Below, one piece after another: positions 34,948-36,162 of a stretch of 64,000 bases of DNA. The stretch covers positions 57,675 through 121,674 of the IMG/VR virus record IMGVR_UViG_3300049043_000117, one strand, 5' to 3'. Numbering within the stretch: position 1 is the first letter of the stretch; each line of letters opens with the position of its first letter. Made by a program: the position numbers and the translations under genes. The DNA comes from a virus. The notes beneath the pieces are model-generated. The model had not been told where the DNA came from. It was given only the letters and a program-made list of their open reading frames with translations, and searched no databases.

Positions 34948-35225
34948 TCAGAGCTCTTGCATCATCTCAAGCATCTCTGCTTCATTGATTTCTTCATCAT
35001 CCCAACGAACACCATCCTTCGTGCTACCCAACATGCGGCCAATCTGTCCATCAGTCATACAACGAACAAACTTAGCCCAAGGGGTCTCATCATCACCACA
35101 GAACTCAACACAAGCCTTTGCAGTGTTATACAGAAACTCATCATTTCCGATCCACAGAGCAGCATTCCAGGTCTCATAGTTACTCCAGCCGTTGTAGGTA
35201 ACTGAGTGGTTTCGGTGTTGGTCAT
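34948..35225 (-). CDS. Conserved DUF7249-like protein, early frameshift
   Basis: About 92 residues. It starts MTNTETTQL just after an intergenic element, slips near 35195, then reads VTYNGWSNYETWNAALWIG and YNTAKACVEFCGDDETPWA to MLEMMQEL. The YNGWSNYETWN signature is shared by a phage and bacterial family of unknown function (DUF7249-like, from memory). It is the first gene downstream of element copy 1. Confidence 0.65.
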
Positions 35226-35232
35226 GTGTGTT

Positions 35233-35303
35233 CCTCTCAACATGGCTGAGATACCAGGCTGGCTCCCTCTGGCGCATACTGTGGCCCAGTCATTTAACTG
35301 TCC
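35233..35303 (-). promoter_or_regulatory. Intergenic hairpin-leader element, copy 1
   Basis: Minus strand: a CAGT/ACTG hairpin, then GTATCTCAGCCATGTTGAGAG, then 8 nt to the ATG at 35225. It is a member of a repeated family described in the findings. Confidence 0.7.
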
Positions 35304-35905
35304 ACTATTCTCTCTGTTGTCAATGTTCTATGGTGGGCTCATGAGTCTTTGTGGCTTGAGACTTAACTTAAGCTGGCTCTAGAGGCTTAAGCACTCAGTC
35401 CCTTTATGCACTCCTACAGAGTTATTATAAGGCTTCAGAGGGACTTATGTCAAGCTCACGAATGTGTGACCCTTAGAGTGCTCATTGAGCTTCTGTAGAA
35501 TGCTTAAGTTTTCCACAGCTTTTCCACAGGTTTGTTATACTTTTTCCACAGCCCTAAGTATAAGAACTCTGATGGCTTTTGAGAACTTGTGATAACCTGT
35601 GGAAAACTTATGCTGTGGAAAACTATAAGAACTCGGAGGGGTCTGAGTGTTACTTTATGTGCGTCCGGAAACTTATGTCGGGGTGCCATTGCCAGTTTTA
35701 GCGGTCGTGTGATAGCCTGCACCCTTAGATCACAAGGTCTCAGAGCTTTCAAGAATGTTATCTCAGGAGCTTTCACTCTCACTAACACAAGGTCTCAGAG
35801 GCTTTATTATCAAACAAACACAAAGATTAGAAAGCGATTGAATGTCGTCTAAATGAGAAAGCTATCTAAACAAAGCTTTAACAAAGCCATGTTTTAGCCA
35901 TTTAT
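35304..35905. other. Gene-free region of about 600 bp
   Basis: I see no credible gene on either strand. The stretch is AT-rich and contains DnaA-box-like motifs, the repeated CACAAGGTCTCAGAG, and several variants of CTCAGAG and ACTTATG. Short open frames here overlap the repeats and lack ribosome sites. Confidence 0.6.
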
Positions 35906-35934
35906 TTAAGCCCTTTTTCCACAGCTTTTCCACA
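35509..35934. promoter_or_regulatory. Cluster of seven DnaA-box-like motifs, candidate origin
   Basis: Seven perfect TTTTCCACA nonamers occur in 426 bp. They start at 35509, 35520, 35542, 35915 and 35926 on the plus strand and at 35598 and 35614 on the minus strand. Adjacent boxes are 11, 22, 16 and 11 bp apart, close to whole helical turns for three of the four. TTTTCCACA is a match to the DnaA-box consensus TTWTNCACA, and is the form I recall from cyanobacterial origins. The cluster lies in gene-free AT-rich DNA. Confidence 0.6.
35731..35800. repeat. 15-bp direct repeat CACAAGGTCTCAGAG
   Basis: CACAAGGTCTCAGAG occurs at 35731 and again at 35786, each followed by GCTT-type sequence. Related CTTCAGAG and CTCAGAGG variants occur at about 35434 and 34633. 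They lie between DnaA-like boxes and resemble iterons, though only two copies are exact. Confidence 0.55.
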
Positions 35935-36162
35935 ACCTTGTTAAAAAACTATCGTAACTCATCAACAACAACTCGTGAAGCACTAAGAGTATGTAACTCC
36001 ACTCCTCTCTAGTTGTTGTCTTCAGTGGAGAACTCACGGGATCATAACTCTCAAACTCTACAACACCCTGAGCATAATCATCATAGAACAGCTCTTCATT
36101 CTCGTAGTGACTTTGATCGTTCATTTCCTGTGAGAAAAACTCTTGAACATCGTCTCTCCATT
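35906..36162 (-). CDS. Small acidic protein, one frameshift
   Basis: About 85 residues: an ATG at 36162 overlapping the upstream stop (TAATG), a slip near 36145, then MNDQSHYENEELFYDDYAQG and YDPVSSPLKTTTREEWSY. The C-terminal LWKSCGKRA is encoded inside the two proximal DnaA-like boxes, so the true end may lie earlier if another indel is present. Unknown family. Confidence 0.45.

Follow-up and report, generated by a model that had tools for sequence, protein, structure and literature searches.

A conserved noncoding module with host-type DnaA boxes in T4-like cyanophages: a possible replication origin or origin-like control region

Phage T4 has several replication origins, which use middle promoters and R-loops, and we know of no involvement of DnaA at any of them. 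The datA locus of Escherichia coli is a DnaA-titration locus, a compact group of high-affinity DnaA boxes situated outside oriC. In the origin region of phage lambda, DnaA stimulates the transcriptional activation of the origin (PMC3985674). The DnaA box of cyanobacteria is the 9-mer TTTTCCACA, and boxes of this sequence lie beside dnaN in the oriC of S. elongatus PCC 7942, Anabaena PCC 7120 and Cyanothece ATCC 51142 (PMC4674748). DnaA-trios are part of the basal unwinding system of oriC (PMC8287927). For the T4-like cyanophages, the only origin claim that we found is the prediction of a single theta origin for Syn9; the same source gives it as not known whether any other cyanomyoviruses have one (PMC2984593). 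Our literature searches found no paper describing DnaA boxes in cyanophages, nothing on the titration of DnaA by phages and no published description, in T4-like cyanophages (Kyanoviridae), of the 67-bp core reported below.

We analyzed a stretch of 64,000 nucleotides (the window), which is the right-hand 64 kb of the 121,674-base virus record IMGVR_UViG_3300049043_000117. The original prediction for this DNA was that seven perfect cyanobacterial-type DnaA boxes, in both orientations and with 11- and 22-bp phasing, are packed into 426 bp of a gene-free, AT-rich region of a T4-like phage, next to a strong sigma70-like promoter. Exact matching confirmed the boxes: TTTTCCACA occurs at 35509+, 35520+, 35542+, 35598-, 35614-, 35915+ and 35926+ (window positions 35509-35934), with neighbors stepped by 11 and 22 bp, and as the 9-mer is the published cyanobacterial DnaA box, the presence of such boxes in a T4-like cyanophage is borne out. 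A first-order Markov estimate for that part of the window gives an expectation of 0.01 copies in the 426 bp (P(>=7) ~2e-18); the whole 64-kb window has 8 copies against 1.7 expected, a count reached in none of 100 shuffles, and the rest of the record adds a single further copy. Chance clustering was ruled out by such counts, both in the window and across phage isolates. The promoter is likewise real as a consensus match. The label “AT-rich” is incorrect for this phage, since GC climbs from ~0.31 in the structural genes on the left to 0.44 at 35-36 kb. That the region is free of genes holds for most of it, but the last part of a 72-aa ORF on the minus strand (35906-36124) takes in the two distal boxes; in relatives, the counterparts of this ORF end earlier. 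The region sits among small minus-strand ORFs beyond the last of the structural genes; its counterpart in S-SCSM2R, a syntenic isolate, is a gap that comes after the baseplate block. The GC content steps sharply at ~34500 of the window, from ~0.31 in the structural genes to ~0.44 in a tract of many small ORFs. A repeat search at the locus returned the boxes and short repeats only, none of them identified as iterons. The module, which reads on the minus strand, has the following features in the window:

35915-35923 and 35926-35934, plus strand: distal DnaA-box pair, exact TTTTCCACA, in the same place in the related loci L134, L150, L170, L207 and L210
35880..35914, minus strand: A+T-leaning stretch GGGCTTAAATAAATGGCTAAAACATGGC, aligning to the conserved AAATGGTTTAAAAAACATAGG of other phages
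35683..35749, minus strand: conserved 67-bp core, window version TTGTGATCTAAGGGTGCAGGCTATCACACGACCG (alignment A1), the sole copy in the record
35509..35622, both strands: proximal DnaA-box array, five exact matches to TTTTCCACA, between core and promoter
35424..35453, minus strand: sigma70-type promoter TTGACA-18-TATAAT, 12/12 consensus, reading leftwards
34948..35277, minus strand: first downstream gene, a 109-aa ORF, DUF7249 (PF23907) / phrog_871 by Pfam and PHROG

In the orientation of the module, the distal pair forms the upstream array, followed by the A+T-leaning stretch and the core, and the 45 bp past these boxes are 67% A+T. The core of the window is a divergent version, matched by our model R1 at 35693-35749 (E 1.5e-8, the sequence having belonged to the training set). 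The proximal boxes are present too in the close relatives of the window, where a promoter-like site (10-12/12) begins 37-57 bp past them. The 109-aa ORF matches the Pfam family with an E of 4.2e-35 over residues 27-109 and the PHROG with an E of 7.9e-36. Its first 26 residues are unlike those of its relatives; a base present in L134 close to the start codon of the relatives is missing from the window, and the start of the ORF may thus be frameshifted.

Relatives keep the boxes, as the original prediction would have it, though the boxes move and multiply. Across 80 IMG/VR loci (833 kb), chosen by a homologue of the neighboring 109-aa gene, TTTTCCACA occurs 100 times against 2 occurrences of the reversed word, and with no motif preset it is the top locally clustered 9-mer in 62 dereplicated loci. 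Other locally clustered 9-mers in the IMG/VR cyanophage loci L125-L211 are CAAAGGATA / ATCCTTTGA and ATCTCGACGAG. Within the window’s clade (the five related loci named above), the boxes occupy the same gap with varying number and orientation; in other clades, box clusters lie a few kb from the 109-aa gene, within the same variable region. The spacings of box pairs, mostly 11-12 bp for direct and 23 bp for inverted pairs, appear compatible with a DnaA assembly and are no proof of one.

Lining up the clusters of the isolates revealed that the boxes form one part of a larger conserved noncoding region, whose conserved core is the part missed by the original prediction. The usual order is the DnaA-box array, an A+T-leaning stretch (e.g., CTAAATGGTTTAAAAAACATAGG), the core (TTGTnGTCTTAGCACGCnnCCTATCGA.TGTCAA) and a sigma70-type promoter. 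A sequence-only model of the 67-bp core, built from 26 sequences, part of them among the genomes searched, found it in 22 of 25 Synechococcus-phage isolates (21/24 plus Syn9), with one match per genome; this sample is biased, as most of the isolates had been located via the 109-aa gene. Three of these matches (S-PRM1, S-CAM7 and S-CAM9) are weak, and weak matches were judged partly by eye. Matches outside the training set include those in S-SCSM2R (1.5e-8), in ACG-2014e, S-CAM4 and ACG-2014h (~6e-10) and in Syn9 (2.9e-10). The Prochlorococcus phage P-SSM4 gives a weak match (E 0.016) in surroundings that look genuine by eye, with an A+T-leaning stretch and TTGACA..TACAAT, and with no boxes. 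The model has no match in P-HM1, P-SSM2, RB11-B, S-T4 and S-CREM1. The last of these (L369) has two box clusters, at 786-828 and 1402-1432, with no core recognizable even with the filters off. Two cores, each with its own box cluster, were found in G022 (IMGVR_UViG_3300033273_000282), complete at 828-982 and 105950-106138 of one 200-kb record; IMG/VR records are fragments, and the two copies could reflect a duplication, two sites or a chimeric assembly. In the isolates S-PM2, Syn9 and Syn33 the module lies at 19.2-19.4 kb, 52.5-52.7 kb and 46.7-46.9 kb, respectively. It is a single-copy noncoding module common to most of the T4-like cyanophages examined. The core has no consensus RNA structure and no Rfam match, which rules out an RNA element; hence any function it has is probably exerted at the DNA level.

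The boxes are linked to this core module. At least two perfect boxes lie within 150 bp upstream of the core in 15 of the 22 core-bearing isolates; together the 22, which span many named genera, have 35 perfect boxes in these segments, whereas 0.064 would be expected from the remainder of these genomes, a contrast that is not a probability because the isolate genomes are related. At least several of the contigs retrieved by the tandem-box pattern alone have the core near their boxes. The number of boxes at the module is only 2-7 per genome, and in 7/22 core-bearing isolates the 150 bp upstream of the core hold at most one perfect box. In the IMG/VR loci L154, L177, L178, L188 and L199, a palindromic TTGAKAATCAA / ATTGATAATCAAT lies just upstream of the core, in the slot of the DnaA boxes; TTGAKAATCAA occurs 29 times in 919 kb against 2 for the reversed control. 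The replacement of boxes by palindromes in several boxless loci suggests an exchangeable binding part. DnaA itself looks like an accessory that can be exchanged, since the core persists in some genomes that have no boxes. The array is not free of genes in every case: the box pair of the Syn33-like phages and the 3′ end of an annotated coding sequence overlap.

On the host side, the regions upstream of dnaN in 30 picocyanobacterial genomes contain 64 sites with at most one mismatch to the box, against 7 in the control; the commonest word there is TTTTCCACA itself (11), with most sites being degenerate. Perfect boxes were dropped as markers of host oriC, since in WH7803, RCC307 and SynAce01 perfect TTTTCCACA is at background, being no more frequent than its reversal. 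The DnaA of WH7803 has the usual GGKDHTTV motif. A phage-encoded DnaA was ruled out, as none of the 18 phage records searched encodes a DnaA_C (DnaA DNA-binding) domain, and the E. coli-type box TTATCCACA is absent or scattered in the phages checked. Derivation of the core from host oriC was also rejected, with 0 matches in 32 host loci (dnaN regions).

Among the features expected of an origin, a DnaA-box cluster of the host consensus is present at the module, and the 45 bp past the array are enriched in A+T (mean 0.70 vs. 0.61 in the surroundings; Wilcoxon p 0.0005), an enrichment that is modest and uneven (percentile 0.44-0.98). Beyond the boxes of 17 loci, DnaA-trios are no more frequent than in shuffled sequence (lowest p 0.05). 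A GC-skew feature, which the original prediction had named as a check, was not found: there is no switch at the module in S-RIM32, S-PM2, Syn33 or Syn9, in all of which the skew tracks gene direction and is only near zero locally at the module. GC skew was accordingly dropped as origin evidence.

Thus compared, the module is like a cyanobacterial oriC in its 9-mer, in its several boxes in both orientations within noncoding DNA and in the A+T-leaning DNA beside the array, and is unlike it in lying on a lytic phage with no dnaA or dnaN nearby, in lacking a skew switch and DnaA-trios, and in having boxes that are perfect rather than degenerate and joined to a core absent from host dnaN regions. 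As at the lambda origin, host DnaA boxes lie near promoters in the DNA of a phage, but in lambda the DnaA sites are degenerate and iterons serve the phage’s own initiator O, whereas the module is without identified iterons and its boxes are perfect and arrayed. Its likeness to datA lies in a compact group of strong DnaA-type boxes outside oriC; unlike at datA, this group belongs to a larger conserved unit beside a promoter, on a virus. With T4 these phages share the superfamily and replisome genes (PMC2984593), along with a promoter next to the candidate origin; T4 differs in having several origins and gives no match to the core model.

We propose that the module is a phage replication origin, or an origin-like early control region, that uses host DnaA; from its sequence organization we give this reading a probability of about 0.48, close to an even chance. 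It is the best reading because the module, a single-copy noncoding region independent of any one gene, combines a promoter and A+T-leaning DNA with boxes for an initiator. In this scheme an oligomer of host DnaA would form on the perfect boxes; once bound, it would help to open the adjacent DNA or, by analogy with lambda, stimulate origin-activating transcription, whereupon the phage’s own T4-type replisome would take over. Of the host-type origin first suggested, an origin-like role thus stands, favored by the module and its boxes, but a simple oriC does not: it is disfavored by the want of a skew switch and of DnaA-trios, the modest A+T enrichment and the core-bearing genomes without boxes (about one-third). 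We do not class the module as an oriC, and most likely it would work like an origin. Somewhat less probable, and offered tentatively, is the fuller proposal that this is a single-site origin of T4-like cyanophages, unlike the several of T4, with most Synechococcus phages borrowing DnaA via perfect boxes and other lineages having lost the boxes or holding another site in the slot.

The main and serious rival, albeit on the unlikely side, is a DnaA-dependent early promoter that is not an origin: DnaA bound upstream would activate or time the sigma70-type promoter of small early genes, and early transcription would follow the replication state of the host. A promoter-like site is found past the core in nearly all clades, matching 10-12/12 in the window’s clade and the Syn33-like phages but only 8-9/12 in S-PM2, S-RIM32, ACG-2014e and others. 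In the window, 55 bp separate the end of the proximal array from the -35 element, and a link between DnaA boxes and a promoter is known at the lambda origin (PMC3985674), yet most genomes have ~150-200 bp between array and promoter, with the core, itself single-copy, lying in between. The first downstream gene codes for DUF7249 in the window’s clade, a YDLE..DG protein in the Syn33-like phages and a weakly KTSC-like protein (Pfam E 0.015, below the cut-off) in the S-CAM1-like phages; these genes are non-homologous between clades, so the module is not simply the promoter of one gene. Of the DnaA-controlled early promoter in the original prediction, the promoter near the boxes stands, while the position of most arrays beyond the core and the differing downstream genes tell against the control proposed. 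As a separate observation, a very long A+T-rich hairpin lies directly 3′ of the promoter-like site in S-RIM32 (L360:1010-1150), S-PM2 (L364:1040-1180) and Syn1 (L370:1000-1140), with RNA fold z of -7.6, -6.7 and -4.7, respectively.

It is a good deal less probable that another host or phage protein binds here and that the module is some other cis site (packaging, recombination or attachment), with a coincidental match to the DnaA box. A core without RNA structure and in one copy per genome would suit such a site, and the TTGAKAATCAA palindromes of some boxless genomes imply that the slot can take other binders; but the 9-mer is identical to the cyanobacterial DnaA box, the commonest word before host dnaN too, and, to our knowledge, T4-type headful packaging needs no unique site, which counts against packaging. 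Least probable is a pure DnaA sponge, the third role in the original prediction, in which perfect boxes multiplied with phage replication titrate host DnaA and halt host initiation: DnaA can be titrated by dense groups of boxes outside oriC, as at datA, and the phages carry in perfect form a word whose copies upstream of host dnaN are mostly degenerate, but the sponge is unlikely with so few boxes per genome, needs no conserved core, fixed place or single copy, and explains neither the recurring order of array, core and promoter nor the core-bearing boxless genomes.

The single-copy landmark common to most of these phages gives testable coordinates in well-studied isolates. If the reading as a DnaA-using origin or origin-like control region is true, major marine Synechococcus phages would tie the start of their replication, or their early program, to the replication initiator of the host.
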